This document shows positions 17,199 through 59,543 of a DNA stretch of 60,683 nucleotides, one piece after another. The DNA is taken from contig CANKLZ010000003.1 of NCBI GenBank assembly GCA_947483795.1, forward strand, positions 1 through 60,683. The letters run 5' to 3'. A program made the position numbers and the translations under genes. Every line of letters begins with the position of its first letter. Position 1 is the stretch's first letter. The notes under the pieces were generated by a model. It did not search any database. It was not told the DNA's origin and saw nothing but the letters and a program-made list of their open reading frames with translations. The DNA is from Micrococcales bacterium. GTDB taxonomy: Bacteria > Actinomycetota > Actinomycetes > Actinomycetales > Microbacteriaceae.

Positions 17199-18002
17199 TT
17201 ATTGAATCTGCTCAACACTTTGAACTTCTGGCCCTAAGAATCGTCTAGCCAGTTTCGCAAAACTTTCAGCATCACCTGTTGCTTGGAAGCGCAAGGACGG
17301 TTTACCAACATCCGTTCTCAAAAGATTGTGAGCTACCAAAGTGCGATAAACATCCTTAGCTGTTTCCTCGGCGCTAGAAACTAAAGTGACGTCTTCACCC
17401 ATTACGTATGCAAGAGCTCCGGTGAGAAGAGGATAGTGTGTGCAGCCCAGAACAAGTGTGTCAACATCAGCATTCTTGATGGGTGCAAGGTAAGTTTCAG
17501 CAAGAGCTATAACCTCAGGTCCTGAAGTGATACCGCGTTCGACATAATCAACAAACTCTGGACAAGCAGCGCTTATGAGTTCAAAGTCAACCGCTGCAGC
17601 AAAAGCATCATCATATGCTCTTGAGGTAATGGTTGCACTGGTTCCGATAACCCCAACTTTGCCATTACGGGTTGCAGCAACCGCTCTTCTAACGGCAGGT
17701 TGAATAACTTCAACTACAGGGATACCACGGCCTTCTGTATATCTCTCACGTGCATCTCTAAGCACTGCTGCGGAAGCAGTGTTGCAAGCAATAACAAGAA
17801 GCTTGACGCCTTCATCAACCAAGCGATCCATGACATCAAGAGCTAAAGTTCTGACCTCTTGAATAGTTTTTGTCCCATAAGGTGTGTTTGCTGTGTCACC
17901 TAGATAAATAACAGATTCATTAGGTAATTGATCAATGATTGCTCTGGCGACAGTTAGACCTCCGACACCGGAGTCAAAGATACCTATAGGAGCGTTATTC
18001 AC
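17199..18002 (-). CDS. murI: Glutamate racemase
   Basis: This 267-residue cofactor-independent racemase supplies D-glutamate for peptidoglycan. The two catalytic cysteines are C73 in [10 protein letters not shown] and C187 in GCTHYP, and the N-terminus [13 protein letters not shown] is diagnostic. The start is GTG with no Shine-Dalgarno; TAGACT ends exactly six bases upstream, so the transcript is probably leaderless. The gene order murI-rph-rdgB is conserved in Actinobacteria. Confidence 0.96.
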
Positions 18003-18008
18003 TGGATA

Positions 18009-18014
18009 AGTCTA
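18009..18014 (-). promoter_or_regulatory. -10 element of murI (leaderless)
   Basis: TAGACT on the minus strand, six bases before the GTG start. No Shine-Dalgarno intervenes. Confidence 0.5.
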
Positions 18015-18025
18015 TTGGCGAAAGA

Positions 18026-18295
18026 TTATTCGTCGCCTGAGCCTTTACCATCTTCGTTTTTCTTCATTTGTTCATAGATGTCTTTACATTCAGGGCAGAC
18101 CGGGAACTTCTCTGGATCACGACTAGGGATCCAAACTTTGCCACACAGAGCAATAACTGGATTACCCATCACTGCAGATTCGACAACCTTGTCTTTTCTG
18201 ACATAGTGCGCATATCTCTCATGATCTCCTGGCTCAATGTTCTGGGTCTGAGGATCTACAACTACGGTAGGTCTATTAATAGTTTCCTGTTCCAT
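18026..18295 (-). CDS. DUF3039 family protein
   Basis: This small protein of 89 residues matches the actinobacterial DUF3039 family (DHERYAHYV near 24-32, ALCGKVW, CPEC). The arrangement H30, C51, C67 and C70 looks like a single structural zinc site; that is inference. The function is unknown. It lies between the malic enzyme and murI, as often in Microbacteriaceae. A clear Shine-Dalgarno (AGAGGA) precedes the ATG, so it is translated from a normal leader. Confidence 0.88.
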   Translation of the reverse strand: MEQETINRPTVVVDPQTQNIEPGDHERYAHYVRKDKVVESAVMGNPVIALCGKVWIPSRDPEKFPVCPECKDIYEQMKKNEDGKGSGDE

Positions 18296-18306
18296 TTATT
18301 CCTCTA

Positions 18307-19695
18307 CTACTTAGAAGCTAATCGAACTGCGTCAGCTACACGCTGGGTTACATCATGATGGAACACACTAGGAACTATATACGACGCGTTCAACTCCTCA
18401 GGCTCAACACAGTGAGCCAGTGCATCGGCGGCTGCCAAAAGCATCTTTTCGGTAATCACATTTGCTCCAGCATCAAGTAATCCCCTGAAGAAACCCGGGA
18501 AAGCTAGAACGTTGTTGATCTGGTTTGGGAAATCACTTCTACCTGTTGCCACTACAGCTGCGAACTGTGCTGCTTTAGCAGGTTCAATTTCGGGTGTTGG
18601 GTTAGCCAAAGCAAAAACAATTGAGTTAGCGGCCATTTTCTCAATGTCGGTTGCTTCCAACAGGTTTCCAGCTGAAACACCGATAAACACATCCGCGCCA
18701 ACTAAAGCATCCTTAAGGCTTCCAACCTTGCCACTTTTATTAGTCTCTTGAGAAATCCAACCCAGCGATGAATCCGGGTTTATGTCCTCTCGCCCGACGT
18801 GAATGATGCCCTTTTGATCGGCAACTACTGCATGCCTTAGACCCGCAGCGAAAAGAAGTTTTAGAACTGCAGTTCCGGCAGCACCCGCACCACTCATAAC
18901 TAGATGCACATCGCCAATATTCTTGTTTACAACTTTTAGAGCATTACGAAGGGCAGCCAGGCAGACAATTGCAGTTCCGTGTTGGTCATCGTGGAAAACT
19001 GGGATATCAAGTTCTGCTCTAAGCCTTGCTTCTATCTCAAAACATCTTGGAGCAGAGATATCTTCTAAGTTGATTCCAGCAAAAACCGGGGCTATTGCCT
19101 TAACAGTTCTTACTATTTCTTCAGTGTCTTGAGTGTCTAAACAAATAGGGAAAGCATCGATGTTGGCGAAACGCTTGAACAATGCAGCTTTACCTTCCAT
19201 GACAGGAAGAGCTGCCAGGGGTCCAATGTTACCCAAACCAAGAACTGCAGAGCCATCGCTAACGACCGCGATGGTGTTTCGCTTAATTGTCAGTCTTCTA
19301 GCATCCGCTGGATCTTTAACAATTGCCTCGCATATGCGAGCAACACCTGGAGTATAGATAAGAGATAGGTCATCTCGGTTGCGGATAGGAAGCTTAGACT
19401 CGATGGTTAGTTTGCCACCTAGGTGGGCAAGAAATGTTCGGTCCGAGACTTTACCGACAACAACTCCAGCGACTAACTTGAGGCTTTCAACAATTTGTTC
19501 AGCGTGCTCTGAGTTAGTGCAGGCACAGGTTAGGTCAATTCTTACTCGTTCAGCATCTGAATGATTCACATCTACTGCTGTTACAGATCCACCTGAACGT
19601 TCAATGATAGACGTGAGCTCGCTTACCGCGGTGTTTTTTGCAGGAGCTTCTAAACGAATTGTTATTGAATACTGAACAGATGGCAACATTGACAT
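18307..19695 (-). CDS. Malic enzyme with N-terminal ACT-like domain
   Basis: This 462-residue enzyme oxidatively decarboxylates malate to pyruvate, linking the TCA cycle to pyruvate supply. Residues 1-90 form an ACT-like regulatory domain (YSITIRLEAPAKNTAVSELT). The malic core follows, with SLIYTPGVARICEAI, the metal site FHDDQHGTAIV and the NAD-binding GAGAAG. It is of the short, bacterial type without a phosphotransacetylase tail. The cofactor (NAD or NADP) cannot be fixed from the sequence. The ATG has CAGACT six bases upstream and no Shine-Dalgarno. Confidence 0.93.
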   Translation of the reverse strand: MSMLPSVQYSITIRLEAPAKNTAVSELTSIIERSGGSVTAVDVNHSDAERVRIDLTCACTNSEHAEQIVESLKLVAGVVVGKVSDRTFLAHLGGKLTIESKLPIRNRDDLSLIYTPGVARICEAIVKDPADARRLTIKRNTIAVVSDGSAVLGLGNIGPLAALPVMEGKAALFKRFANIDAFPICLDTQDTEEIVRTVKAIAPVFAGINLEDISAPRCFEIEARLRAELDIPVFHDDQHGTAIVCLAALRNALKVVNKNIGDVHLVMSGAGAAGTAVLKLLFAAGLRHAVVADQKGIIHVGREDINPDSSLGWISQETNKSGKVGSLKDALVGADVFIGVSAGNLLEATDIEKMAANSIVFALANPTPEIEPAKAAQFAAVVATGRSDFPNQINNVLAFPGFFRGLLDAGANVITEKMLLAAADALAHCVEPEELNASYIVPSVFHHDVTQRVADAVRLASK

Positions 19696-19701
19696 GCTTA
19701 T

Positions 19702-19707
19702 AGTCTG
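19702..19707 (-). promoter_or_regulatory. -10 element of the malic enzyme gene (leaderless)
   Basis: CAGACT on the minus strand ends six bases before the ATG at 19695; no ribosome binding site lies between. Confidence 0.4.
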
Positions 19708-19734
19708 CCACGACTAACAAGATGGACCTAACCT

Positions 19735-20982: not shown

Positions 20983-21005
20983 TTATCCAACTTTATGTAT
21001 CCAAC
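20981..21005. repeat. Tandem 11-base direct repeat at the htrA promoter
   Basis: ATTTATCCAAC (20981-20991) and ATGTATCCAAC (20995-21005) on the plus strand differ at one base and are spaced 3 bases apart, giving a 14-base period. They cover the -10 region and start codon of htrA. This could be an operator or a duplicated promoter; either is inference. Confidence 0.4.
20990..20995 (-). promoter_or_regulatory. -10 element of htrA (leaderless)
   Basis: TAAAGT on the minus strand, seven bases before the ATG at 20982; it lies within the direct-repeat region. Confidence 0.45.
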
Positions 21006-21045
21006 TACATAATTTTATGAATATCTGCTGACAAAGACCTGAAAA

Positions 21046-21891
21046 TCAACAACGCCAAGCAGATGAGCCATTGAGACAAGGTGAGTTCACTAGTTTTGGC
21101 GGTTCTTTGATGCTTTTAGGGGGATCAACTGACCCCACATTGAAAGTAACCTGATTTGCATTAGTAACTAAATCTGGCTTAACTACACTCCAACTTGTAA
21201 GTCCATCGAATAGATACTCAACGGAATATGAGACCGCCAGCAAAACCCTCACATCACCTACTCTGCCAGGAATGTAAGTTGGCTTGGGCAGAGCACTGGT
21301 TTTAGTTGTAGCCCCAACCGCTGCAAAGGTCCACTTATATTTCGCCGGCTTGAATCGAACCTGAGCGGCTAAACCTAACAACTTGGTTTTCAAAGTCTGA
21401 ATCCTTGCTGAAGAAGAGAATGAGACTTGCTGTTTCACCTTTATCCCTTTTGATGGCTTGAGAAAAATTCTAGGAATCTCAGGTTTGAATGTCTTGAGAG
21501 CTGACTGGAGCTTCGACTGACTGGGCTTACCGATGTTAACTATTGCAATGGCTTGGCTTGGCGGATACAAACTCCAGCATCCGACATGCCCCGAAGATAA
21601 CAAACTGTAGGTCAAATCTAAGCTCAAACCGTTTGGATAGACCAAACACTTAGGCGCAGTGCTGGTCTGTGAACCAATAATCAGGTTCAATGAACCATTG
21701 GACCCTTTGATCAGTAGTGCCTTTGAGGCGCAAAGAGTTAGCTGAGTTGAATTGCTAACCGCACCTACAGACGTGCTGACGGAACTAAAAGCACTTGGAC
21801 AACTAGGCGCTGCTACCCAGCCTGAAGTAGCGAGAGCGATTGAAGCTAGTAACAGCATGCAAGGAGCATACGGAATTGGCACCAAATGCAC
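21046..21891 (-). CDS. Secreted Cys-rich protein of unknown function
   Basis: I do not recognise a family. The 281-residue product has an N-terminal hydrophobic signal (about 10-28, CMLLLASIALATSGWVA). The mature part has six cysteines (31, 54, 82, 105, 272, 281). Residues 170-235 (VRFKPAKYKWTF...GDVRVLLAVSYSVEYLF) resemble the beta-sandwich PKD-like stretch of other actinobacterial secreted proteins. There is no C-terminal anchor. The start is GTG, with TATATA six bases upstream and no Shine-Dalgarno. It lies just past the terminator of tRNA-fMet, so it needs its own promoter. Confidence 0.7.
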   Translation of the reverse strand: MHLVPIPYAPCMLLLASIALATSGWVAAPSCPSAFSSVSTSVGAVSNSTQLTLCASKALLIKGSNGSLNLIIGSQTSTAPKCLVYPNGLSLDLTYSLLSSGHVGCWSLYPPSQAIAIVNIGKPSQSKLQSALKTFKPEIPRIFLKPSKGIKVKQQVSFSSSARIQTLKTKLLGLAAQVRFKPAKYKWTFAAVGATTKTSALPKPTYIPGRVGDVRVLLAVSYSVEYLFDGLTSWSVVKPDLVTNANQVTFNVGSVDPPKSIKEPPKLVNSPCLNGSSAWRC

Positions 21892-21897
21892 TTAAGT

Positions 21898-21903
21898 TAT
21901 ATA
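21898..21903 (-). promoter_or_regulatory. -10 element of the 281-residue secreted protein gene (leaderless)
   Basis: TATATA ends six bases before the GTG start at 21891. It is squeezed between the start codon and the tRNA-fMet terminator. Confidence 0.45.
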
Positions 21904-21907
21904 CAGC

Positions 21908-21942
21908 AAAAGAAAAGGCCCCAACTTTCGTTGGGACCTTTT
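21908..21942 (-). terminator. Intrinsic terminator after tRNA-fMet
   Basis: Arms 21913-21925 and 21930-21942 pair over 13 positions with one mismatch and a 4-base loop. On the minus strand the stem is followed by a T-rich tail. It lies 7 bases after the tRNA 3' end. Confidence 0.85.
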
Positions 21943-21948
21943 CACTAT

Positions 21949-22025
21949 TGGTTGCGGAGGCAGGATTTGAACCTACGACCTCCGGGTTATGAGCCCGGCG
22001 AGCTACCGAACTGCTCCACCCCGCG
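21949..22025 (-). tRNA. Initiator tRNA-fMet (anticodon CAT)
   Basis: The acceptor begins CGCGGGG and ends CTCCGCA, giving the C1-A72 mismatch typical of bacterial initiators. The anticodon stem CCGGG/CCCGG provides the three G-C pairs next to the loop CTCATAA. CCA is encoded (21949-21951). It is 27 bases from the end of the UPF0182 gene on the same strand, so it is either read through from that gene or has a promoter inside the gene's end. Confidence 0.96.
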
Positions 22026-22052
22026 GCGAAGTTCCAGCCTAACACAATCCAG

Positions 22053-26019: not shown

Positions 26020-26025
26020 AGCCTA
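26020..26025 (-). promoter_or_regulatory. -10 element of the YlbL-type protease gene (leaderless)
   Basis: TAGGCT on the minus strand with seven bases to the ATG at 26012; no Shine-Dalgarno. Confidence 0.5.
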
Positions 26026-26175: not shown

Positions 26176-27504
26176 ATGAGCGAAGAAAACGAAAACGGAT
26201 TGCCCGACCCAGAGGAACTAAGACGTATCTGGGAAGAAATGCTGAGTCAAGGCTTTGATCCTGAAGCCCTGGCTAAAGCGGCCGGTTTTGATGGCAGCCC
26301 TGAGTCTCTCCAACAACTGTTTGCGAATATTCAAGGTGCATTTCTAATTCCAACGCCCCCTTCGGAAGGATCTGGCGTTAACTGGCAAGCCGCAGCCCAA
26401 AGCGCAAAAGAATTAGCCAAAGTAGGTTCAACTTCATCCGATGACAAAGCTAGAAAAGAGCTTTTAGACGCGATTGGTATTGCCAACCTTTGGCTCAATG
26501 AAGCCACCGTTATGTCTGAGGTGCTTGTTGAACCAAAGATACTAAGTCGAACTCTTTGGGTGGACGATGCCCTTCCACTATTCAGAGCATTGGCAGAGCC
26601 TGTTGCTGACCGAATGAATAGGAGTCTTGGCGAAGCAATCCAACAGCAGCTTCCGGAAGAATTTCAGGAATCTCTGAAAGGCGCCAGTGAGATTATGCGC
26701 TCTGCAGGGGCCATGATGTTTGCCATGCAGTTGGGTCAAGCTCTTGGTCAACTCTCAAGAGAAGCTCTGACTGGAACTGAGGTTGGTTTACCAATCTATG
26801 TTGACCAACGACCTGCTTTTGTGATTCAGAATCTCCAAGAGTTCATCAAAACATTGGAACTCGGTAGTGACCAAGATCAGGCATACATCTACCTAGTGCT
26901 TCGCGAGCTAGCACACACCAGACTGTTCAAGCACTCGAAATGGCTAAGAGAAAAAGTAGTAGCTCAGATTCGTGAATACGCTGCGGGTATTTCCTTCGAT
27001 ACCAGTCGCATTCAAGAACTCAGCGAAGACTTTGATCCACAAAACCCTCAAGAACTTCAAGCAGCGCTTGAGTCAGGTGCATTCCTTGCACCGAGATCGC
27101 CAAGCCAACAGCTTGCGCTGGACATTATCGAAACCAACCTTGCCCTGATTGAAGGTTGGGTTGATGCTGTTACTAGTTCTGCTGGAATTCGCCTTCCGAA
27201 AGCAGACGCTATCCGTGAAGCAGTAAGAAGAAGGCGAGCAACCGGTGGCCCTGCTGAGCGCACCTTCCAAACTCTGGTTGGACTCGAACTTCGCCCTAAG
27301 CGATTGCGAGAAGCAACTGCGCTATGGCAACAAATCGGATCTGCTTTAGGAAATGAAAAACGTGATGCACTTTGGGATCACCCGGACTTGTTACCAACAG
27401 CCACAGATATTGATAACCCAGATAAATACGTAGCCCGAATCAAATCTGATTTAGGTATTCCAGATGCAATGGATCAAGCCTTGAGAGATTTACTCGGCGA
27501 ATAA
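26176..27504 (+). CDS. DUF2342 / zincin-like protein with degenerate HExxH
   Basis: The protein has 442 residues and belongs to the actinobacterial DUF2342 (Zincin_2) family, mycobacterial Rv3195. The usual zinc-protease HExxH is replaced here by RELAH (243-247), so the first zinc-binding His is an Arg. The surrounding segment (HTRLFKHSKWLREKVVAQIREYAAGI) is otherwise family-like. It may therefore be a non-catalytic member. The N-terminal 60 residues are acidic and helical. It is preceded by a clear Shine-Dalgarno (AGAGGA), with a likely -10 TACCTT at 26153-26158, divergent from the YlbL-type gene. Confidence 0.85.
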   Translation: MSEENENGLPDPEELRRIWEEMLSQGFDPEALAKAAGFDGSPESLQQLFANIQGAFLIPTPPSEGSGVNWQAAAQSAKELAKVGSTSSDDKARKELLDAIGIANLWLNEATVMSEVLVEPKILSRTLWVDDALPLFRALAEPVADRMNRSLGEAIQQQLPEEFQESLKGASEIMRSAGAMMFAMQLGQALGQLSREALTGTEVGLPIYVDQRPAFVIQNLQEFIKTLELGSDQDQAYIYLVLRELAHTRLFKHSKWLREKVVAQIREYAAGISFDTSRIQELSEDFDPQNPQELQAALESGAFLAPRSPSQQLALDIIETNLALIEGWVDAVTSSAGIRLPKADAIREAVRRRRATGGPAERTFQTLVGLELRPKRLREATALWQQIGSALGNEKRDALWDHPDLLPTATDIDNPDKYVARIKSDLGIPDAMDQALRDLLGE

Positions 27505-27540: not shown

Positions 27541-27546
27541 CAGACT
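27541..27546 (+). promoter_or_regulatory. Candidate -10 element of the E1/cyclodehydratase-like gene
   Basis: CAGACT ends seven bases before the GTG at 27554. The gene is only 49 bases after DUF2342 and may also be read from upstream. Confidence 0.3.
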
Positions 27547-27553: not shown

Positions 27554-28612
27554 GTGTTCCATCGAATCAATAAAGCCCAACCAGCTATCTGGCGTGATCC
27601 AAACACTATTCAAATTGGGCTAGATAAGAACAAGATTGAAATTGAAGAGTTAACCCTCGCTCAACAACAAATCATCGCTGCTTTATACAGTGGAGTGGTT
27701 GACGGCCAACAAGAAGTTTTGGATGAAACTTTCAAAACTGAACCTGGAACCACCAACCAGTTGATAGCCAAACTTGGCTCACTGATAGAGCGACCTGAAA
27801 CAGTAAGCAACGTATATGGTGATTGGCAGCAGATAGCGTTCGCTGAACTAACTAGAGCAGCACTTGACTACGAAGTGAATCCAGAAATGGTTCTAGCTGA
27901 GCGTTGGCAACGAGTAGTACACATCGACCAGTTGGATAAGTCAGGAGTTCTGCTGACCAAGGGTTTGCTTGCTAGCGGAGTTGGAAAAGTTGTCACGCAT
28001 GATGATTCCAGAATCCTAAACACAGATTTAGGTGAGCTTGGATTCAGTAAAGAATTTCTTGGTCAAACAAGATTTGATGCAGTTAGATCAGATCTCCAAA
28101 AACTCTCTCTCCCTCAATCTAAAGTTCAAAGGTTTGTGAATCTCAACGTCAAACCCAATAGAGATCTAAAGATCTCTTTTGCAATCACAAGCGGACATCT
28201 AGCCACTAGACCCTCAACCTATATACGTTGGGTAAATCGTGATGTTCCTCACCTAAATATCACTTTTGATTTATATGAAACTCAAATCAGCCCCATTGTT
28301 ATTCCTGGCCAGAGCCCTTGCCTAAACTGTTTCGCAGAATACAAGGTTGATGAAGATCCAGCTTGGCCAGCTATTGCATCGCAACTCATCGAGTTACCTA
28401 GAACTAGAGATGACAGCTCTTCGCTCTTAAGTTCGGCTGGATTGGCACTCAGAGCAATTCTTAGACACTTAGATGAGTCGGCAGGGTTCAAGGTATCAAC
28501 TGAGAATAAAAATGAATACAAAGATGGCTACCGAATCGAATATGCATCAGGCAACGTCTATCGAACTAAATATGACTTCCATAAACTCTGCAACTGCAAA
28601 GGCTTAGATTAG
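27554..28612 (+). CDS. Orphan E1-like / cyclodehydratase-like protein
   Basis: The protein has 352 residues and is not a textbook enzyme. Residues 120-185 resemble the adenylation fold of ThiF/MoeB E1 proteins: a hydrophobic strand, LLASGVGKVVTHDDSRILNTDLG with an acidic pair at 150-151, and a helix ending in KLSL. C256-x2-C259 and C346-x-C348 look like the paired Cys zinc site. VIPGQSPCLNCFAEYKVDEDPAWP strongly resembles cyclodehydratase C proteins of azole-forming peptide systems. No YcaO partner or precursor peptide is seen here. It occupies the place of mycobacterial Rv3196. The start is GTG. Confidence 0.65.
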   Translation: MFHRINKAQPAIWRDPNTIQIGLDKNKIEIEELTLAQQQIIAALYSGVVDGQQEVLDETFKTEPGTTNQLIAKLGSLIERPETVSNVYGDWQQIAFAELTRAALDYEVNPEMVLAERWQRVVHIDQLDKSGVLLTKGLLASGVGKVVTHDDSRILNTDLGELGFSKEFLGQTRFDAVRSDLQKLSLPQSKVQRFVNLNVKPNRDLKISFAITSGHLATRPSTYIRWVNRDVPHLNITFDLYETQISPIVIPGQSPCLNCFAEYKVDEDPAWPAIASQLIELPRTRDDSSSLLSSAGLALRAILRHLDESAGFKVSTENKNEYKDGYRIEYASGNVYRTKYDFHKLCNCKGLD

Positions 28613-31284: not shown

Positions 31285-31290
31285 TAACCT
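31285..31290 (+). promoter_or_regulatory. -10 element of the phosphotransferase-like gene (leaderless)
   Basis: TAACCT ends seven bases before the ATG at 31298. It is the same hexamer as at dapD and tatB, and it decides this start over the ATG at 31274. Confidence 0.5.
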
Positions 31291-33731: not shown

Positions 33732-33737
33732 ATCTTA
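33732..33737 (-). promoter_or_regulatory. -10 element of the ferritin-like gene (leaderless)
   Basis: TAAGAT on the minus strand, six bases before the GTG at 33725. Confidence 0.45.
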
Positions 33738-33790: not shown

Positions 33791-35167
33791 TTGGATTTTA
33801 GCGAATTAGGCATCGATTCGGATATCGTTGCTGCACTAGCCTCAAAAGGCATAATCTCACCATTCCCTATTCAGGAGCAGGCAATCCCCCTTGCCCTGAC
33901 TGGCCAGGACCTAATTGGTCAGGCAAAGACTGGTACCGGTAAGACCCTAGGTTTCGGCCTACCGATCATTCAAAGACTAGGAACTGACCCGGCTCACGGA
34001 GCAAAAGCCCTAGTAGTTGTTCCTACCCGTGAATTAGCCATTCAGGTAGCAGAAGACCTCACTTTGGCATCTTCAAACAGAAATGTTCAAGTAGTGGCTA
34101 TCTACGGTGGTAAATCCTACGAAGGTCAGGTGGCCCAGATTGATGCTGGAGCACAACTTATTGTTGGAACCCCAGGTCGATTGATTGACCTCAGTAACCA
34201 AAGAAAACTAGACCTATCAAAGATTGAATGCATGGTTCTGGACGAAGCAGACGAAATGCTAGATCTTGGATTCTTACCCGATGTTGAAAAACTTTTTGCT
34301 TTCACCCCTGCTGGTCGTCAAACAATGTTGTTCTCAGCAACTATGCCTGGACAAATTGTTTCGCTAGCTCGAAAATACCAAAACAAGCCAGTACACATCA
34401 GAGTCAATGACCCTGATGAAGGTCACACTAAAGCTGACATCAAACAATTCTTCTATCGTGCTCACGCAATGGATAAAGATGAAGTTGTTGCAAGAATTCT
34501 TCAAGCCGAAGGCCGCGGCAAAACCGTAATCTTTACTAAGACCAAAAGACAAGCTGCCAAAGTTTCAGATGAATTATCTGATCGTGGCTTTAGTGCAACA
34601 GCCCTGCATGGAGATATGTCTCAAGAGGCTAGAGAAAAGTCGATGGACTCTTTCCGCAGTGGCAAGCGAGACATTCTTGTTGCTACCGAAGTGGCGGCAC
34701 GTGGAATCGATGTTGATGATGTCACCCACGTAATCAACTACACAGTCCCTGAAGATGAGAAGGCCTACCTGCACAGAACCGGTAGAACAGGTCGTGCCGG
34801 GAGAACCGGTATCGCAGTTACATTTGTTGACTGGGAAGATCTAGTTCGATGGTCACACATTGACAAGGCATTGGAACTAAACACTCCTGACCCAGTTGAA
34901 ACCTATTCCTCTTCACCTCACCTATTCACAGATCTTGATATCCCAGCAGGCACTAAAGGCAGAATTGCTGCTTCGAAGCGCCCATCTGATTGGAAACCAG
35001 GCGATCATGAAAAGCCAAAAGGTGCAAGACCTGGGAACAATGGCAGGCCACAGCGCAAGCCGCAAAACAGTTCTGCAAAACCACAGGCCGCTAAAGCTCA
35101 AACCCCGAAGCCTTCAAGCGATCGTCCACCTAGAAACAGAACACGCACTCGAAAGTCTGGCGAATAG
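33791..35167 (+). CDS. rhlE: DEAD-box RNA helicase (RhlE-like)
   Basis: This is an ATP-dependent RNA helicase of 458 residues. The Q motif (FPIQEQAIP, about 24-32), motif I AKTGTGKT, PTRELA, motif II DEAD (VLDEADEML), SAT and motif VI HRTGRTGRAGRTG are all intact. The last 80 residues are a basic, Pro/Lys/Arg-rich disordered tail suited to RNA binding. The start must be TTG at 33791, because a stop lies seven codons upstream and no other start fits. It is divergent from the ferritin-like gene. Confidence 0.94.
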   Translation: MDFSELGIDSDIVAALASKGIISPFPIQEQAIPLALTGQDLIGQAKTGTGKTLGFGLPIIQRLGTDPAHGAKALVVVPTRELAIQVAEDLTLASSNRNVQVVAIYGGKSYEGQVAQIDAGAQLIVGTPGRLIDLSNQRKLDLSKIECMVLDEADEMLDLGFLPDVEKLFAFTPAGRQTMLFSATMPGQIVSLARKYQNKPVHIRVNDPDEGHTKADIKQFFYRAHAMDKDEVVARILQAEGRGKTVIFTKTKRQAAKVSDELSDRGFSATALHGDMSQEAREKSMDSFRSGKRDILVATEVAARGIDVDDVTHVINYTVPEDEKAYLHRTGRTGRAGRTGIAVTFVDWEDLVRWSHIDKALELNTPDPVETYSSSPHLFTDLDIPAGTKGRIAASKRPSDWKPGDHEKPKGARPGNNGRPQRKPQNSSAKPQAAKAQTPKPSSDRPPRNRTRTRKSGE

Positions 35168-36123: not shown

Positions 36124-36153
36124 CTGACAGTTCTTCCATAAAACTGGCAGAAT
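36124..36153 (+). promoter_or_regulatory. Promoter of the Xaa-Pro aminopeptidase gene (leaderless)
   Basis: CTGACA (36124-36129) and CAGAAT (36148-36153) are separated by 18 bases, and seven bases follow to the ATG. This is one of the few leaderless promoters here with a recognisable -35. Confidence 0.5.
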
Positions 36154-38079: not shown

Positions 38080-38085
38080 AGTCTG
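38080..38085 (-). promoter_or_regulatory. -10 element of the stress-17M-like gene (leaderless)
   Basis: CAGACT on the minus strand ends six bases before the ATG at 38073. Confidence 0.35.
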
Positions 38086-38106: not shown

Positions 38107-38112
38107 TAAGGT
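38107..38112 (+). promoter_or_regulatory. -10 element of the MgtE-N/CBS gene (leaderless)
   Basis: TAAGGT ends six bases before the GTG at 38119; the stretch between (TAAGAG) is too close to act as a ribosome binding site. Confidence 0.4.
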
Positions 38113-39369: not shown

Positions 39370-39868
39370 ATCACGTAACCGTCTAGATACTCCGCTATCA
39401 GCTAAGCGTAAGCCTATAGTTCCACGTATTAATCGCGAACAGTTTGGTCGAGCATCTGAGACATTTGCTCGTGCCCTTGGTACCGGTGGCTTCCTCATTG
39501 GCTTAACTATTTTCTGTATTGTCTGGCTACTTTGGAACACTCTTGCTCATCCGTCTCTTGCTTTTGACCCTAGAGCTACTAACTTCACCCTGCTCACTCT
39601 CTTGCTGTCACTGCAGGCATCATATGCAGCCCCATTGATTTTGCTAGCGCAGAACCGTCAAGATGACCGAGACCGCGTAAAGACGGAACAAGATCGTCAA
39701 TTAGCCGAGCGCAACCTTGCCGATACTGAGTATCTTGCTCGTGAAGTTGTGGCCTTACGTTTAGCCATGGATGAAGTTGCTACCAAGGAATTCGTCAGAG
39801 ACGAGATACGCGATGCCCTGGAAGAAATCCTTGCTGAGCTAAAGAAGAATTCGAACGACTCAAAGTAA
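39362..39868 (+). CDS. DUF1003 family membrane protein
   Basis: This 168-residue protein has two membrane helices (about 40-62 and 75-98: LTIFCIVWLLWNTL and FTLLTLLLSLQASYAAPLILLAQNRQ) and a C-terminal amphipathic coiled coil, matching DUF1003. I chose the ATG at 39362 (MAKSRNR), preceded by GGTGGTG; the frame is open further into the upstream gene. It overlaps mrp downstream by one base (TAATG), so the three genes are coupled. Confidence 0.88.
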   Translation: MAKSRNRLDTPLSAKRKPIVPRINREQFGRASETFARALGTGGFLIGLTIFCIVWLLWNTLAHPSLAFDPRATNFTLLTLLLSLQASYAAPLILLAQNRQDDRDRVKTEQDRQLAERNLADTEYLAREVVALRLAMDEVATKEFVRDEIRDALEEILAELKKNSNDSK

Positions 39869-40986
39869 TGACTACACTGCAGGAAAGAGTTCTAGAAACT
39901 CTCAGCTTGGTTATTGACCCTGAACTTAGAAAACCAATCACTGAACTCGATATGGTTGGTGCTATAACTGGTTCTGAAAATGCATTCAGTGTTGAGATAA
40001 AACTAACTGTCAGCCACTGCCCTCAGGCTACACAGATTGAAACTCGGGTTAACGAGGTTTTAGCCGACGAGTTCTCCACCTCAGAGATATCAGTAGTTAT
40101 GAAAGTTATGACAGCTGAAGAGCTCAATGAGCTCAAGGTAAAACTTCGTGGTGGCCGTGAGCCTAAATCAAATCCTTTTGGGGTTGGCAGTGCTACCCAA
40201 GTATTTCTAATTGGTTCAGGTAAAGGTGGAGTTGGTAAAAGCTCTCTAACTGTAAATTTGGCAGTTGAGCTGGCTAATCAAGGTTTTGATGTTGGAATTT
40301 TGGATGCTGACATCTTTGGTTTCAGCATTCCAGCACAACTTGGCACTACCGATCGACCAACACGTCTAGATGACATGATCTTGCCTCCCATCGCTCACGG
40401 TGTAAAGGTCATTTCAATTGGAATGTTTTTACCTAGCAATGAACCGGTTGCCTGGCGAGGACCGATGCTCCATAAAGCTGTTGAACAGTTCCTAACTGAG
40501 GTGCACTGGGGTTCATTGGACTATCTCCTAATAGACATGCCTCCCGGCACAGGTGATGTTGCGATATCTGTCGGGCAATTGCTTCCGAATGCCAGAAGTA
40601 TTGTTGTGACAACTCCACAGCAAGCCTCCTCCTATGTTGCTCAAAGAAGTGGTTCAGCCAGTCACAAGATAGGCCAAGAGATTTTTGGAGTTATTGAGAA
40701 TATGTGTGGGCTCAGAATGCCTGATGGCTCAACTCTTGAGATATTTGGCACCGGTGGTGGCCAAGTGGTGGCCGATGACCTATCTAAGTTCTCAGGTACT
40801 GAGGTAAAACTTATCGGTCAGATTCCAATAAGTGTTCCACTCAGAACAGGCTCTGATACTGGAACACCTCTAGTTGTTTCTCTAAAGGATGACCCAGCGG
40901 CTATTGAAATAGCCAAAATAGCCAAACTAATGAGCGAGGCCAAGCTTCCTCCTGCTAATCGCACTTTGAAAGTGGACATAGCCTAA
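39868..40986 (+). CDS. mrp: Mrp/ApbC/NBP35-type Fe-S carrier ATPase
   Basis: This is a P-loop ATPase of 372 residues thought to load Fe-S clusters onto apoproteins. An N-terminal DUF59 domain (about 5-85) with C51 is followed by the deviant Walker A GSGKGGVGKSS (116-126), LDADIFG and DMPPGTGD. The usual CxxC cluster motif after NM is reduced to NMCGLRMPDG with a single Cys. That suits the actinobacterial form but leaves the cluster ligands unclear. Confidence 0.92.
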   Translation: MTTLQERVLETLSLVIDPELRKPITELDMVGAITGSENAFSVEIKLTVSHCPQATQIETRVNEVLADEFSTSEISVVMKVMTAEELNELKVKLRGGREPKSNPFGVGSATQVFLIGSGKGGVGKSSLTVNLAVELANQGFDVGILDADIFGFSIPAQLGTTDRPTRLDDMILPPIAHGVKVISIGMFLPSNEPVAWRGPMLHKAVEQFLTEVHWGSLDYLLIDMPPGTGDVAISVGQLLPNARSIVVTTPQQASSYVAQRSGSASHKIGQEIFGVIENMCGLRMPDGSTLEIFGTGGGQVVADDLSKFSGTEVKLIGQIPISVPLRTGSDTGTPLVVSLKDDPAAIEIAKIAKLMSEAKLPPANRTLKVDIA

Positions 40987-40989
40987 ACT
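40984..40989 (+). promoter_or_regulatory. -10 element of the aldehyde dehydrogenase gene (leaderless)
   Basis: TAAACT ends seven bases before the ATG at 40997 and overlaps the mrp stop codon. Confidence 0.4.
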
Positions 40990-42873: not shown

Positions 42874-42879
42874 AGGTTA
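42874..42879 (-). promoter_or_regulatory. -10 element of tatB (leaderless)
   Basis: TAACCT on the minus strand, six bases before the GTG at 42867. An AAAAGGG run abuts the start but is too close to act as a normal ribosome binding site. Confidence 0.45.
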
Positions 42880-44957: not shown

Positions 44958-44963
44958 AGCCTA
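44958..44963 (-). promoter_or_regulatory. -10 element of dapE (leaderless)
   Basis: TAGGCT on the minus strand, six bases before the GTG; four bases from the dapD -10 box. Confidence 0.5.
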
Positions 44964-44967: not shown

Positions 44968-44973
44968 TAACCT
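44968..44973 (+). promoter_or_regulatory. -10 element of dapD (leaderless)
   Basis: TAACCT ends seven bases before the ATG at 44981. The GTAGGG next to the ATG could weakly act as a ribosome binding site if a leader existed. Confidence 0.45.
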
Positions 44974-50577: not shown

Positions 50578-50583
50578 AAGGTA
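50578..50583 (-). promoter_or_regulatory. -10 element of thiL (leaderless)
   Basis: TACCTT on the minus strand, six bases before the GTG; it shares two base pairs with the DUF3515 -10 box. Confidence 0.5.
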
Positions 50584-50587
50584 GCCT
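50582..50587 (+). promoter_or_regulatory. -10 element of the DUF3515 gene (leaderless)
   Basis: TAGCCT ends seven bases before the ATG at 50595, overlapping the thiL -10 by two base pairs. Confidence 0.5.
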
Positions 50588-52114: not shown

Positions 52115-53115
52115 TACTCAGCCTCTGGTGCATCGTCGCCTTTGGTAAGAGATGGACCGATGTCTTTAGGGCTCATCTTTCCTTCGATTACTAACTGGAC
52201 CTGCTCAACGATAGGCATCTCAACATTCCTTTGAGCGGCTAGTCGAAGGATTGGAGCCACAGAGGTTAGACCTTCAGCTGTTTGGGAAAGACGCTTGAGC
52301 ACTTCTCGTTTTGAATAACCCTTGCCAAGCATCTCTCCGGCTTTGTGGTTACGAGAGAGTGGAGATTCAGAAGTAGCAATTAGGTCGCCAAGACCGGCTA
52401 GCCCAACCATGGTTTTCTTCTTAGCGCCGAAGGCAACTGCGAATCTAGAGATCTCGGCTAGGCCACGAGTCATGATTGAAGCTTTGGTGTTCTGACCGTA
52501 ACCAACTCCGTTGACGATTCCGATAGCAACAGCGATGAGGTTCTTGAGAATTCCACCGAACTCCGTACCAATCACGTCTTTGTTCGTAAAGGTAGTGAAG
52601 TAAGAGTTGGTGGCAGCTTGAGCAACTAGAGAGGCGTTCTCTTCTGATGTGCAGGCAGCAACACAAGCTGCTGGCTGTTCGCTTGCAATCTCTAGTGACA
52701 AGTTAGGACCCGACACCACACAGATTAGATCTTTATCAATCTTGAGAACATCTTCAATCACTTCACTCATACGAAGGCTTGATCCTTGCTCAACACCTTT
52801 CATGAGTGAGACAACGATTGCACCCTCTTCAATGAACTTGCCCCACTCTTCAAGGTTGGCACGCAGAGTTTGGGAAGGTACGGCAATATGAACTTGCTCT
52901 GCACCTTTTAGTACTTCTGCAATATTTGATGATGCAACAAGTTCTTTAGGCAGGTTTATGCCAGGCATGTAGTCACCGTTACGGTGGGTTGTGTTGATTT
53001 CTTCAGTTAGCTCTTCGCGACGAGACCAAAGCATCACTTCGTTGCCTGCATCCACCAATACCTTGGCGAATGTGGTTCCCCAGGAACCTGCACCAATAAC
53101 CGCTATACGAGCCAT
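52114..53115 (-). CDS. gpsA: Glycerol-3-phosphate dehydrogenase (NAD(P)+)
   Basis: This 333-residue enzyme reduces dihydroxyacetone phosphate to sn-glycerol-3-phosphate for phospholipid synthesis. The dinucleotide site is GAGSWGT (7-13); SLMKGVEQGSSLRMSE, SGPNLSLEIA and GLAGLGDLIATSESPLSRNHKAG are typical. It is next to the plsC-type acyltransferase that uses its product's derivatives, 2 bases apart. Confidence 0.96.
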   Translation of the reverse strand: MARIAVIGAGSWGTTFAKVLVDAGNEVMLWSRREELTEEINTTHRNGDYMPGINLPKELVASSNIAEVLKGAEQVHIAVPSQTLRANLEEWGKFIEEGAIVVSLMKGVEQGSSLRMSEVIEDVLKIDKDLICVVSGPNLSLEIASEQPAACVAACTSEENASLVAQAATNSYFTTFTNKDVIGTEFGGILKNLIAVAIGIVNGVGYGQNTKASIMTRGLAEISRFAVAFGAKKKTMVGLAGLGDLIATSESPLSRNHKAGEMLGKGYSKREVLKRLSQTAEGLTSVAPILRLAAQRNVEMPIVEQVQLVIEGKMSPKDIGPSLTKGDDAPEAE

Positions 53116-55328: not shown

Positions 55329-55930
55329 TTAGCTCCTAGTGCCGGAAGTGTCTTTGGCATCCAATTAGGTCTTCTTGACTCGAAGTCGGTAATCGAACTC
55401 TCATCTCTAAGGGTAAGACCGATGTCGTCAAGACCTTCTAATAAACGCCAACGTGTGTATTCATCTATTGAGAACTCAACAGTCAAATCCCCCAAAGTAG
55501 CGGTTCTGTGAACCAAATCAATAGTTATTTCAACCCCAGGGTTTGAAAGGATTGCATCCCAAAGCTTCTCTGTGTCTTCGTCAGTAATCTCACCAGCAAT
55601 AAGCCCTTGCTTACCGGAGTTTCCCTTAAAGATGTCGGCAAACTTGGATGACAAAACAGCCTTGAAACCATAGTCACGCAAAGCCCATACAGCGTGCTCA
55701 CGAGAAGATCCTGTACCAAAATCAGGACCAGCTACCAATACTGAACCGTGCTTATATGCTGGGTCATTCAATACAAACTCTGGATCATTACGCCATGATG
55801 CAAACAGTGCATCTTCAAAACCTGTCTTGGTAATTCTCTTTAGATAAACAGCAGGAATGATCTGGTCAGTGTCAACGTTAGATCTTTTCAGAGGAACAGC
55901 AATGCCAGTGAAGGTAGTGAACTTTTCCAT
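55325..55930 (-). CDS. leuD: 3-isopropylmalate dehydratase small subunit
   Basis: This 201-residue swivel domain of the isopropylmalate isomerase interconverts 2- and 3-isopropylmalate with Leu[17 protein letters not shown] (about 18-33) and [25 protein letters not shown] (about 68-92) are diagnostic. The start overlaps the leuC stop by one base. Confidence 0.96.
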
Positions 55931-57348
55931 TAGTTCTCCTCCAAATCAGCAGGCGCAGAAAGTGTGCCACGAATGGCAGTAGCTGCTGCTACCAGTGGCG
56001 AAACCAAATGTGTTCTAGCGCCTTTACCCTGACGACCTTCAAAGTTTCTGTTGGATGTTGATGCTGCTCGCTCCCCTGGAGCTAACTGGTCTGGGTTCAT
56101 ACCAAGACACATTGAACATCCTGCGAATCGCCACTCAGCACCAAAGTCTAAAAAGATTTTGTCTAGACCTTCATGCTCAGCTTCAAGTCGAACTCGAGCA
56201 CTGCCAGGAACTACCAGCATGCGAACGTTCTCTGCTTTAGTTCTACCTTTAAGGATTGCAGCTGCAGCTCTTAGATCTTCAATTCGGGAGTTGGTGCAAG
56301 AACCCAAAAACACAGTGTCTACCTTGATGTCTTTCATCTTGGTTCCAGCAACTAGATCCATATATTCAAGAGCTCTAACAGCAGCTGCTTTTTCATTAGG
56401 GTCAGTAAATGAATCTGGGAAAGGAACAACATCATTTAGAGATACACCTTGACCTGGGTTAGTACCCCAAGTAACAAAAGGATCAAGGGTATTGGCATCT
56501 AAGAAAACTTCAGCATCAAACTCAGCTCCCGAATCAGTAGCCAAAGAATCCCAATACCTAACTGCATCATCCCAGTCAGTTCCCTCAGGTGCATGAACTC
56601 TGCCCTTGAGATAGTCATAGGTAGTTTGATCTGGAGCAACCATTCCTGCTCTGGCTCCTGCTTCGATTGACATGTTACAAATAGTCATTCGAGCTTCCAT
56701 AGAAAGATCTCTGATGGCTGACCCACGGTACTCAAGAACATAGCCTTGACCACCACCGGTACCAATCTTGGCAATCACAGCCAAGATGATGTCTTTAGAG
56801 GTAACTCCCGCTCTAAGTTTTCCCTCGACGTTAATAGCCATGGTTTTGAAAGGCTTTAGAGGAAGAGTCTGGGTAGCTAGAACATGCTCAACTTCGCTTG
56901 TTCCAATACCTAGCGCAAGAGCTCCAAAAGCACCATGAGTTGAAGTGTGTGAATCACCACAAACCACAGTGATACCAGGCATGGTGAGACCTAATTGAGG
57001 CCCAACCACGTGGACGATACCCTGCTCGATGTCGCCTAGGGAGTGAATACGGATACCGAACTCTTTAGCATTATGTCTAAGCGCTTCAATCTGAGTTCGG
57101 CTAGTTGGATCAGCAATCGGCTTATCGATATCTACGGTCGGAGTGTTGTGATCTTCTGTAGCAATAGTAAGGTCAGGTCTTCTAACCTGACGGCCAGCCA
57201 ACCTCAGACCATCAAAAGCCTGAGGGCTGGTTACCTCATGTAAAAGGTGAAGGTCAATGAACAATAAATCAGGTGCGCCGTTCTCCCCTTTGACCACCAC
57301 GTGGTCATTCCACACCTTTTCGGCGAGGGTTAGGTTCGTTTTAGTCAA
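55930..57348 (-). CDS. leuC: 3-isopropylmalate dehydratase large subunit
   Basis: This 472-residue aconitase-family subunit carries a [4Fe-4S] cluster. The cluster cysteines are in [15 protein letters not shown] and [26 protein letters not shown] is the substrate region. The start is TTG (no ATG fits), with GAAGGTG six bases upstream as ribosome binding site. It heads the leuC-leuD-murA-plsC-gpsA-ddl run. The IclR regulator gene usually divergent from leuC in Actinobacteria is not present. Confidence 0.95.
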
Positions 57349-57394
57349 TGTGACACCTTCAATAGGGCTGAACTAGAAGTTTACCAGCGTGGGC

Positions 57395-57400
57395 TAGATT
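57395..57400 (+). promoter_or_regulatory. -10 element of the MFS transporter gene (leaderless)
   Basis: TAGATT ends six bases before the GTG at 57407. Confidence 0.45.
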
Positions 57401-57406
57401 GGCTAA

Positions 57407-58645
57407 GTGAGTGATACCGAGGATATTCAACGCAGAACCATCAAAGTACTGGCTTTAGGCCAGGTTTTAGGTGGTTTTGGACTTGGTTCTGTCCTCTCGA
57501 TTGGCTCTCTTTTAGCAAAAGACCTAAGCGGATCTGAGGCTTGGGCAGGCTCTGCAGCTACCTTTAGCACCCTTGGTTCAGCCATTTGGGCTATTCCACT
57601 AGCCAGACTGGCCTACGCCAGAGGTAGGAGAATTTCCCTGGCAATGGGTGCAGGATTCGCAATTACTGGAGCTATTGCAGTTATAAATGCAGCAGGCCTG
57701 AGATCATTTCCGCTTTTACTTCTAGGCATCTTTCTTTTAGGTGCAGGGTCCGCTACATCTCTTCAAGCCAGATTTGCCGCAACCGATATCCCTTCTGCGG
57801 GTAAAACTGGACGGTCTATCGGACTTGTGGTCTGGGCAACAACAGTTGGTGCCGTTACTGGACCTAACTTGTTTGGTCCAGGCGAAGAACTGGGTAAAGC
57901 TTTAGGGCTAGCTCCTCTGGCAGGTCCATTCCTGTTTACCGTTGCTGCACAAACCTGTTCAACGCTTGTCTTCTGGTTTGGGCTACGACCAGATCCATTG
58001 AAATACGCTCAAGAAATCGGCAAAGATGCGGGCAAGGCAAAACACAAGATATCTTTCAAGTCAGCTATTCAAACCCTCAAGGCATATCCAGTAGCAAGGT
58101 TTGCTGTGATGAGCATCGCTTTGTCACACATGGTTATGGTTTCAGTGATGGCGATGACTCCAGTTCATCTTCAACACATGGGCTACGACATTGTTGTGGT
58201 TGGTTTCACAATCAGTTTGCACATTGCTGGCATGTATGCGATATCACCAGTGATGGGATTCTTGGCAGACAAAGTTGGCAAAGTCCAAACAATATTCATC
58301 GGTCAGGCTCTATTTGTAGCAGCGCTTCTGTTCGCAGGTCTAGGTCATGCCGATCGTTTGATGGTAACCATAGGACTGACACTTTTAGGTTTGGGCTGGT
58401 CAGCAGCAACAGTTGCAGGCTCTGCACTACTCTCCGTCACTTTGCCTCCTGAAGAGAAAACCAATGTTCAGGGGCTCAGCGACTCTCTCATGAATCTAAG
58501 CGGTGCATTTGGTGGAGCTATCGCGGGTTTACTTTTGGCAAGTTTTCACTTTGAAGGGCTAAACGCTATTGCATTAGTTCCTGTATCGGTTGTGACTGTT
58601 CTAATCTTTGCTATTTCAAGAAAGAACAAATTAGCGAATAGCTAG
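57407..58645 (+). CDS. Major facilitator superfamily transporter
   Basis: This is a 12-helix transporter of 412 residues, with the loop motif GFLADKVGKVQT between helices 8 and 9 and a long central loop near 195-225. The substrate cannot be told. It stands divergent from leuC, where Actinobacteria usually have an IclR-type regulator. The start is GTG. The 3' end overlaps the convergent sugar kinase by 15 bases. Confidence 0.88.
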   Translation: MSDTEDIQRRTIKVLALGQVLGGFGLGSVLSIGSLLAKDLSGSEAWAGSAATFSTLGSAIWAIPLARLAYARGRRISLAMGAGFAITGAIAVINAAGLRSFPLLLLGIFLLGAGSATSLQARFAATDIPSAGKTGRSIGLVVWATTVGAVTGPNLFGPGEELGKALGLAPLAGPFLFTVAAQTCSTLVFWFGLRPDPLKYAQEIGKDAGKAKHKISFKSAIQTLKAYPVARFAVMSIALSHMVMVSVMAMTPVHLQHMGYDIVVVGFTISLHIAGMYAISPVMGFLADKVGKVQTIFIGQALFVAALLFAGLGHADRLMVTIGLTLLGLGWSAATVAGSALLSVTLPPEEKTNVQGLSDSLMNLSGAFGGAIAGLLLASFHFEGLNAIALVPVSVVTVLIFAISRKNKLANS

Positions 58646-59530
58646 AAGCTCATCCCAGGTAGGCCCTGAACAGCCACCTTCTTTTTGAATAGAGAACTCA
58701 GCTGCACGACAAGCTAGCTCTAGAGATTCTTGTAAACCATTGCCTGTAGCAAGGGCTGCTAAGAACGCTCCAGTGTGAACGTCCCCTGCACCATTGGTAT
58801 CAACAACTGGAACTCTGTATCCAGGAGCAACGGCAATCACTTTCCCCTGATGATGTAACTCGGCACCTTCAGAGCCTTTACGAAGCAATAGCCAACAGTT
58901 AGCAGACACAAAAGGTGAAAGTCTTTCAAATTCACTCTGGTTACAAGAAATCAAAGATGCGTTTTGTCCGAGCCAAGTTAGCACTTCATCGCTTAGCTGC
59001 GAGGTAGTTGGTCCTGGATCAAAAACAATCTTGCTCTTGATAAGACCACTGGCAAATAGTTCTTCAAAAGCCTGCTTAGAGGTTGGATATACAAGCTCAT
59101 AACCATAAATAACTAGCCAAGCCTCAGAGTCATACTCATACTGCTTGAGCTCAGCAAAACTTCTAATCCCCTCAGCACCACTCTGGGTGACAAAGCTACG
59201 CTGACCATTAGGTTCAACTAAAGTAATGCAAAGTCCAGAATCTCCAGTTGAGTAATCCTCTACTCCCAGGGCCTCAACATTTTCTCTCGACATGGCTTCG
59301 CGAATCATGTCAGCTCTAGGGCCTATACCTAGTGGGGTGCAGTGGCCAACGCTTAGTCCCAGGCGAGACGCCGTGGCTTCAAGGTTGAGCGCTCCACCTA
59401 CCCTGCTGAAGCTCTTGGTGGCTAACACATCGCCACCAGGGGTAGGTAGGTGTGGCACATAGGTAATCTGATCCACTAGCCCACTGGCTAACGAGAGGAT
59501 ACGTGAGGGGCGAAATTCGTCTAACTGCAT
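58631..59530 (-). CDS. PfkB-family carbohydrate kinase
   Basis: This ribokinase-fold kinase of 299 residues has FSRVGGALNLEATASRLGL near its N-terminus and the PfkB signature DTNGAGDVHTGAFLAAL (about 244-260), with the catalytic Asp in GAGD. The sugar or nucleoside substrate is unknown. I chose the ATG at 59530; a start at 59572 would lie inside the tRNA-Glu terminator. TAGGCT ends seven bases upstream and there is no Shine-Dalgarno. Confidence 0.87.
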   Translation of the reverse strand: MQLDEFRPSRILSLASGLVDQITYVPHLPTPGGDVLATKSFSRVGGALNLEATASRLGLSVGHCTPLGIGPRADMIREAMSRENVEALGVEDYSTGDSGLCITLVEPNGQRSFVTQSGAEGIRSFAELKQYEYDSEAWLVIYGYELVYPTSKQAFEELFASGLIKSKIVFDPGPTTSQLSDEVLTWLGQNASLISCNQSEFERLSPFVSANCWLLLRKGSEGAELHHQGKVIAVAPGYRVPVVDTNGAGDVHTGAFLAALATGNGLQESLELACRAAEFSIQKEGGCSGPTWDELLAIR

Positions 59531-59537
59531 TACTACT

Positions 59538-59543
59538 AGCCTA
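59538..59543 (-). promoter_or_regulatory. -10 element of the PfkB kinase gene (leaderless)
   Basis: TAGGCT on the minus strand, seven bases before the ATG; it sits 10 bases past the tail of the tRNA-Glu terminator. Confidence 0.5.

Follow-up and report, generated by a model that had tools for sequence, protein, structure and literature searches.

Predicted leaderless initiation at start-codon-proximal -10 elements in a Microbacteriaceae genome and putative promoters shared by divergent genes in its genus

Introduction

Leaderless genes were reported in 86 of 89 actinobacterial genomes, where they account for ~20% of the genes and carry TAnnnT signals, and according to the same source leaderless initiation within an operon is confined to its proximal gene (Zheng 2011, PMC3160421). 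For Mycobacterium tuberculosis 26% of the genes with a primary transcription start site (TSS) are given as leaderless (PMC3898074), and for Deinococcus-Thermus the figure stated is ~30% of the open reading frames on average (cited with PMC3160421, PMC3898074 and PMC12340547). Bidirectional promoters of Escherichia coli and Salmonella are described to share a -10 element, with opposite TSSs mostly 18 bp apart and distances of 10 and 23 bp also common; in E. coli, 24% are located between divergent genes, where they give rise to two mRNAs (PMC12825309, PMC10268837). In M. tuberculosis, "closely juxtaposed divergent promoters" are called a common feature (PMC3898074). Here, we analysed a stretch of 60,683 bases (contig CANKLZ010000003.1, assembly GCA_947483795.1; hereafter the window) from a Micrococcales bacterium of the Microbacteriaceae. 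In this genome, -10 hexamers of the type TA[GA]nCT that end 6–7 bases before an ATG or GTG are strongly enriched, far above chance. We describe the position and conservation of these hexamers, the divergent gene pairs in which they meet, and strict symmetric forms recurring in the genus which may serve two leaderless genes at once.

Results

Position of the -10 hexamer relative to the start codon

The assembly comprises 1.16 Mb in 80 contigs and is 82% complete. The closest named relatives are metagenome-assembled genomes labelled Rhodoluna sp., Micrococcales and Auritidibacter, and the host is probably one of the freshwater Microbacteriaceae of the Luna type. The own-genome sample consisted of the window and 20 further stretches (460,683 bases, G+C content 46.5%). 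It was compared with three congeners (G506, 400 kb; G006 and G017, 200 kb each) out of a genus set of 60 genomes, own included, and with outgroup samples of 100 kb each from eight other actinobacteria and from E. coli K-12. Genes were called by a program that ignores the upstream sequence, so that start calls are blind to the motif. When run on E. coli K-12 (100 kb), the caller recovered 82 of 85 entered annotated genes, ~69 of the 82 (~84%) with the exact annotated start at settings near those used; since part of the true starts is missed, the motif counts for the own genome are low estimates.

Among 108 starts of divergent genes in the own genome, TANNNT ended 6 bases before the start codon in 22 cases and 7 bases before it in 12, together 34, against a background of 2.1 per position. 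Starts lying at most 10 bases behind a gene on the same strand (n = 129) had the motif 7 times at 6 bases and 4 times at 7 bases, with a background of 1.1. In G506, 21 of 88 starts had it at 6 and 5 at 7 bases (background 1.35), and G006 and G017 showed the same peak. Pooled, the eight other actinobacteria had the motif at 6 or 7 bases in 48 of 539 starts, ranging from 9/60 to 2/51 in the lowest sample, G035; in the E. coli control it was found at none of 78 starts. A count independent of gene calls took every ATG or GTG that opens a frame of 60 codons or more and has a hexamer scoring 6 bits or more at a distance of 6 or 7 bases; it gave 48 sites in the own genome versus 9–17 at four shifted spacings, and 2 versus 2–6 in E. 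coli. The positional motif search, which an initial annotation of the window had named as a check of its own proposal of leaderless initiation, gave a sharp excess at 6 and 7 bases above background in the own genome and none in E. coli.

The -10 hexamers of the window

The initial annotation had listed twenty genes as leaderless. Seventeen of these were accepted, thiL is ambiguous and htrA and nudC failed. Conservation was determined in congeners as [TC]ANNNT at 6 or 7 bases from any start within 12 codons; relatives with less than 50% identity, with an alignment starting after residue 40 or identical over 120 bases were dropped. Position, strand, score and congeners with the motif are as follows:

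18009–18014, minus strand, murI (Asp/Glu racemase): TAGACT, 6 bases before GTG 18002; 8.0 bits; 1/1
19702–19707, minus strand, malic enzyme: CAGACT, 6 bases before ATG 19695; 4.8 bits; no relatives in the set
21865–21870, minus strand, secreted-like protein: TATGCT, 6 bases before the corrected ATG 21858; 4.6 bits; 4/5
26020–26025, minus strand, YlbL-type protease: TAGGCT, 7 bases before ATG 26012; 8.2 bits; 8/8
27541–27546, plus strand, E1-like protein (352 residues): CAGACT, 7 bases before GTG 27554; 4.8 bits; 4/9, the rest with variant hexamers
31285–31290, plus strand, APH-like phosphotransferase: TAACCT, 7 bases before ATG 31298; 6.7 bits; 11/11
33732–33737, minus strand, MiaE/ferritin-like protein: TAAGAT, 6 bases before GTG 33725; 5.3 bits; 17/17
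36148–36153, plus strand, pepP: CAGAAT behind TGG (like an extended -10), 7 bases before ATG 36161; 2.7 bits; 14/17
38080–38085, minus strand, YflT/17M: CAGACT, 6 bases before ATG 38073; 4.8 bits; 8/10
38107–38112, plus strand, MgtE_N/CBS: TAAGGT, 6 bases before GTG 38119; 4.6 bits; 14/15
40984–40989, plus strand, aldehyde dehydrogenase: TAAACT, 7 bases before ATG 40997; 7.3 bits; 15/15 at 6/7
42874–42879, minus strand, tatB: TAACCT, 6 bases before GTG 42867; 6.7 bits; 11/11
44958–44963, minus strand, dapE: TAGGCT, start GTG 44951; 22/23; back to back with the dapD -10
44968–44973, plus strand, dapD: TAACCT, start ATG 44981; 23/23; 4 bases from the dapE -10
50578–50583, minus strand, thiL (candidate, ambiguous): TACCTT, 6 bases before GTG 50571; 1.3 bits; 13/13 at 6/7
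50582–50587, plus strand, DUF3515: TAGCCT, start ATG 50595; 7.4 bits; 9/9
57395–57400, plus strand, MFS: TAGATT, 6 bases before GTG 57407; 5.4 bits; 7/7
59538–59543, minus strand, PfkB: TAGGCT, 7 bases before ATG 59530; 8.2 bits; 1/1

The scoring matrix had in part been trained on these genes. With it, and with the secreted protein taken at its corrected start, 17 of the 20 genes reached 4 bits or more at a distance of 6 or 7 bases, where 0.58 are expected from shuffled upstream regions. A higher-scoring hexamer was present elsewhere within 34 bases in six of the 20 (htrA, nudC, pepP, MgtE_N, aldehyde dehydrogenase and thiL). For the aldehyde dehydrogenase, the rival hexamer, 12 bases off, reached 7.4 bits; the gene keeps its motif in all congeners compared, though it starts 10 bases after the preceding gene. 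Conservation brings pepP in, whose relatives carry TGGCAGAAT, and takes htrA out. Controls at shifted spacings gave means of 0–5.2 congener matches, with single positions reaching 16/23 for the dap pair and 11/13 for thiL; for malic enzyme, murI and PfkB, 0–1 relatives each entered the congener test. Genes taken as led by a Shine-Dalgarno (SD) site or as internal to operons mostly had no congener with the motif, the exceptions being the gene at 53115 (5/9), DUF2342 (4/11), an O-methyltransferase (3/14) and the gene at 39868 (2/16). A four-base SD core was found upstream of five of the 20 genes and 0–3 bases of it in the other 15; the core overlaps the hexamer in MgtE_N and tatB and lies upstream of it in the other three.

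Three of the initial assignments were rejected. The secreted protein, previously read as 281 residues from position 21891, was moved to ATG 21858 behind TATGCT, a pattern kept in L005–L007. htrA had the motif in 0 of 8 congeners; an SD leader precedes the gene in its relatives, and TTG 20952 behind GAGGG is the probable start of the own gene. nudC had the motif in 1 of 13 congeners and the own gene is without it. Calling the genes operon-leading had in part been derived from the motif itself, as the distance to a preceding gene on the same strand is 23 bases for murI, 10 for aldehyde dehydrogenase and 39 for malic enzyme. The gene names fitted Pfam for the most part: the window has matches to a racemase (murI), malic enzyme, HtrA-like, PDZ/Lon_C (YlbL type), NUDIX (nudC), APH, MiaE_2 (the ferritin-like gene), M24/AMP_N (pepP), YflT, MgtE_N, Aldedh, M20 (dapE, 44951), hexapeptide/THDPS (dapD, 44981), AIRS (thiL), DUF3515 (PF12028), MFS and PfkB. 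The match of tatB to TatA_B_E was below threshold, and the secreted-like protein of 270 residues (21046–21858) and the E1-like protein of 352 residues (27554–28612) had no Pfam match at E 0.001.

Share of leaderless genes

A mixture model with leaderless, SD and background start classes was fitted to the starts. It learned TA[GA][AG]CT at a spacing of 6 (68%) or 7 bases (27%) together with a separate AGGAGG-like class, and assigned 25% of the own genes and 40% of the divergent ones to the leaderless class. At shifted spacings the log-likelihood for the own genome was 75–85 units worse. TTG occurred in 0 of 147 leaderless calls versus 62 of 450 SD calls, a contrast which is not independent because the model also learns start-codon preferences; its absence among leaderless calls is as expected if the start codon is the first transcribed base. 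A -35 element was considered and dropped, as 143 aligned cases pooled from three genomes gave no signal for a -35 preference. The anti-SD tail of the 16S rRNA was not found in the own assembly, which is incomplete. After correction for non-TANNNT motifs and wrong starts, roughly 40–50%, about half, of the divergent starts would be leaderless genome-wide.

The coexistence of two initiation modes, leaderless for many leading genes and SD sites inside operons, is well supported by position, conservation and the excess at 6 and 7 bases. A near-complete separation of the two modes was overstated: between 26 and 57.4 kb of the window, 12 of 18 divergent starts are leaderless (thiL counted) and 6 are not, in our own classification from motif scores and conservation. 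Nor is leaderless initiation the rule, given the fractions of the model. These fractions are close to the published figure for Actinobacteria, in which leaderless mRNAs are known (~20% of genes; PMC3160421). In sum, leaderless initiation is confirmed in silico, is ordinary for the phylum and had been overstated in degree.

Divergent pairs and their gaps

Gap lengths between divergent genes were compared in the own genome, G006 and G017 for pairs 1–500 bp apart (13 of 109 pairs were outside this range and dropped). The median gap was 38.5 bp when the model classed both genes as leaderless (n = 18), 61 bp with one (n = 35) and 107 bp with none (n = 43; both versus none, p = 5e-5). Pairs of motif-bearing starts at most 60 bases apart were found 14 times at 6 or 7 bases in 1.26 Mb from four genomes of the genus (threshold 5 bits), and at none of four shifted spacings. 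The eight other actinobacteria (800 kb) had three such pairs, and one pair at one of the four shifted spacings; the tight shared layout is not claimed as strictly exclusive to the genus.

In the window, the start codons of dapE and dapD are 29 bases apart and their -10 hexamers stand back to back with 4 bases between them. Both hexamers reached at least 4 bits (spacing 5–8) in 23 of 23 congeners, with a start gap of 27–31 in 22 of them and of 38 in one. Bidirectional promoters were judged by TSSs 7–25 bp apart, with 18 and 23 bp as common distances, and the dapE/dapD start distance (30) is outside this range. The sole overlapping pair of the window is thiL/DUF3515, whose start codons are 23 bases apart and whose hexamers share two bases. 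AAAGGTAGCCT is kept at this site in 8 of 9 congeners; in the remaining one, L205, TTAGCCTA stands there and the start distance is 18. The pair may have switched between a 23-base and an 18-base layout; alternatively, the element may be of the 18-base type (TAGCCT + CAGGCT) in all of them, with thiL mostly carrying a few leader bases.

Strict symmetric patterns in the genus

Two strict patterns were searched for in the 60 genomes of the genus: P17, CAYN5TAGNCTAN5RTG, with starts 17 apart, and P22, CAYN6AGNNTANNCTN6RTG, with starts 22 apart. The same patterns read backwards served as control, and site totals were summed by hand. P17 was present in 43 of 60 genomes with 59 sites versus 4 for the reversed pattern, and P22 in 49 of 60 genomes with 85 sites versus 2; the sites are not independent, one menB/menC-like element making up more than half of P17. 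The own genome has no P17 and a single P22. Of the 144 sites, 40 were fetched, picked by eye for different loci, and the stretches held 41 matches. A frame was taken as open if it ran for 60 codons or more or reached the end of the stretch, and 28 of the 41 matches had such frames on both sides (P17 9/15, P22 19/26). As background, these stretches contain 175 CAY/RTG pairs with the same gaps, of which 31 were open on both sides; nearly all of the 28 are among these 31. Named pairs are:

L217: menB/menC
L232: dut/DUF3093, symmetric beyond the hexamers (TTAGA...TCTAA)
L233: deoC/DUF167
L239: yaaA/cobalamin adenosyltransferase
L252: msrA/aldo-keto reductase
L249: EamA transporter/msrA-like frame (read by eye)
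L153: NAD(P)HX dehydratase/FMN oxidoreductase

In 6 of 13 scanned proteins from these pairs the family match begins at residue 1–4. Outside the genus the patterns were not clearly above control. In samples of the phylum, P17 occurred in 18 of 246 genomes with 19 sites versus 31 for the control, which is not above control, and P22 in 25 of 149 genomes (own included) with 25 sites versus 17, which is little above it; in the family, P17 occurred in 56 of 199 genomes, of which the 52 outside the genus had 63 sites versus 48 for the control, both P17 totals again being summed by hand.

A side observation concerns msrA, which retains AGCCTAGGCT, a palindrome at a distance of 6 bases from the start (L231, L249 and L255 versus L250, L252 and L256; around position 1200), while its divergent partner varies between congeners, being an EamA-like transporter or an aldo-keto reductase. 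msrA was identified by Pfam in L252 and by eye in the other stretches. It looks as if the partner had been exchanged at a shared promoter.

Proposed mechanism and alternative explanations

From the observed position and conservation of the hexamers we infer both the transcription start points and leaderless translation. The explanation that we favour as a whole, with a probability of roughly 0.85, is a leaderless -10 placed at the start codon, with divergent pairs packed back to back or sharing an element. The housekeeping RNA polymerase would recognise a -10 of the type TA[GA]nCT (in some cases CAnnnT behind TG), with no detectable -35, placed such that the first transcribed base would be the A or G of the start codon, and the leaderless mRNA would be read by ribosomes directly from its 5' AUG or GUG. 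SD sites would serve genes inside operons and those leading genes that kept a 5' untranslated region. A leaderless promoter would need only ~12 bases upstream of the start codon and, because of this, two of them could be packed back to back between divergent genes. In the tightest cases of the genus, one symmetric element (TAGnCTA or AGnnTAnnCT) would fire both ways, with starts 17 or 22 apart. Each ATG would then be the +1 of its own gene and, in the 17-base form, also provide the -18 T of the opposite promoter, and the whole intergenic region would be reduced to one shared promoter. With the start codon as +1, P17 and P22 predict TSS spacings of 18 and 23, which match two spacings common in bidirectional promoters. 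From the observed geometry and open frames, and from the recurrence of the patterns over the genus, we infer firing in both directions, and consider it probable that the genus uses a single symmetric -10 for two divergent leaderless mRNAs with starts exactly 17 or 22 apart.

Several results weigh against these readings. The thiL/DUF3515 pair passes 4 bits on both sides in only 2 of 9 congeners, and CAGGCT, 11 bases from the thiL start, scores 5.0 bits versus 1.3 for TACCTT at 6 bases, so that thiL may have a leader of 4–5 bases starting from CAGGCT; as the thiL hexamer is ambiguous, our confidence in leaderless initiation and in the shared promoters is slightly lowered. Models with shifted spacing still put 13–22% of the own divergent genes into a spurious class, and in G006 a shifted control takes 36% of the divergent genes versus 26% at the true spacing, at an overall fit that is 44 log units worse. 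The fractions of the mixture model are soft because the shifted controls absorb many genes, and we put weight on position counts and conservation instead. About half of the divergent starts are without the motif. At the sole P22 site of the own genome (L104), only one of the two sides has an open frame, and an open frame is missing on one side of 13 of the 41 palindrome matches.

Genome compaction might also have brought two independent directional promoters close to each other in the tight pairs, whose symmetry would then come from the compatibility of the hexamers and not from any coupling. We regard this as possible, if clearly less probable than a shared element: the gaps are spread over 17–48, and by reasoning 17 and 22 are the registers in which two TAnnnT hexamers overlap without conflict, but the genus repeatedly shows the strict 17- and 22-base forms, for which the reversed controls are near zero, and the same gene pairs carry them in different genomes. 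Symmetric sites near start codons are also typical of operators, and the palindromes between close divergent starts, to the detriment of a shared promoter, could be repressor operators overlapping the promoters, as suits the dut/DUF3093 element with its symmetry beyond the hexamers. An operator over overlapping -10 elements, with one leaderless gene, is described for csoR-cueA of Bradyrhizobium (PMC5057107). By eye, however, the letters common to different pairs are limited to those of the -10, at a fixed distance from both start codons, and the named genes are mostly housekeeping enzymes, which makes operators unlikely. That the genes are ordinary leadered ones, with TAnnnT near their starts by chance or through mis-called starts, holds for htrA and nudC and may hold for thiL, and start calling was exact in only ~84% of the E. 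coli genes; as a general explanation it is contradicted by the shift and shuffle controls and by conservation, and we consider it very improbable.

SD-led genes and further features of the window

Orthologues switch their initiation mode within the genus, as read from the sequences of DUF2342 (Zincin_2, window position 26176), which has an SD leader in the own genome and in L005–L007 and is leaderless in L199, L012, L013 and L015. The DEAD-box helicase gene (33791–35167) has a TTG start and a leader that ends in GACAGGCGGCCAAAACTA, common to 5 of 10 relatives compared. An aconitase-family gene (57348) has a conserved leader, with TAAACT ending ~29 bases upstream and AAGGTG/GAGGTG ~5 bases upstream. 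The window also contains tRNA genes:

15190–15262: tRNA-Arg(ccg), across which the gene caller ran one gene start
21949–22025: tRNA-Met(cat)
59593–59666: tRNA-Glu(ctc)

Comparison with described systems

Since almost all Actinobacteria have been reported to contain leaderless genes, the finding in the window is the expected state of the phylum. Like the TA-led genes of Actinobacteria and Deinococcus-Thermus, those described here have TAnnnT at a fixed distance, 15 of the 20 listed genes have no four-base SD core, and only the proximal gene of an operon is leaderless; unlike in the published cases, the middle of the hexamer is more defined (R at position 3, C at position 5) and tight divergent pairs recur. 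What goes further is the short gap of pairs with both genes leaderless and, above all, the putative symmetric promoters that two leaderless genes would share. If these promoters are real, leaderless mRNAs and bidirectional promoters would be joined in a very compact divergent layout that leaves both genes intact, and the same letters would serve as start codon, as +1 base and as part of the opposite promoter, so that promoter and protein sequence would constrain each other. The exact prediction would be two 5' ends, one on each strand, separated by 18 or 23 bases, and natural pairs such as menB/menC would suit asking how one element splits polymerase between two genes.

Among the publications listed in a search that was mostly at title level and covered subscription journals thinly, none was found that describes both genes of a pair with a shared element as leaderless. 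The nearest cases found are csoR-cueA, with one side leaderless, and prpD/Rv1129c of M. tuberculosis, with both sides leaderless and no shared -10 described in the part of the source consulted. In csoR-cueA of Bradyrhizobium the -10 elements overlap as well and the csoR mRNA is reported as leaderless by 5' rapid amplification of cDNA ends, but cueA has a 42-base leader and it is a single case with an operator (PMC5057107). prpD and Rv1129c are divergent neighbours that are both given as leaderless, but with TSSs at internal start codons, and the parts of the account seen describe no overlapping -10 (PMC3898074). With the bidirectional promoters of E. coli and Salmonella, the genus shares overlapping symmetric -10 elements (P17 in 43/60 and P22 in 49/60 genomes); unlike there, both predicted mRNAs would be leaderless, and the promoter would make up the whole intergenic region.

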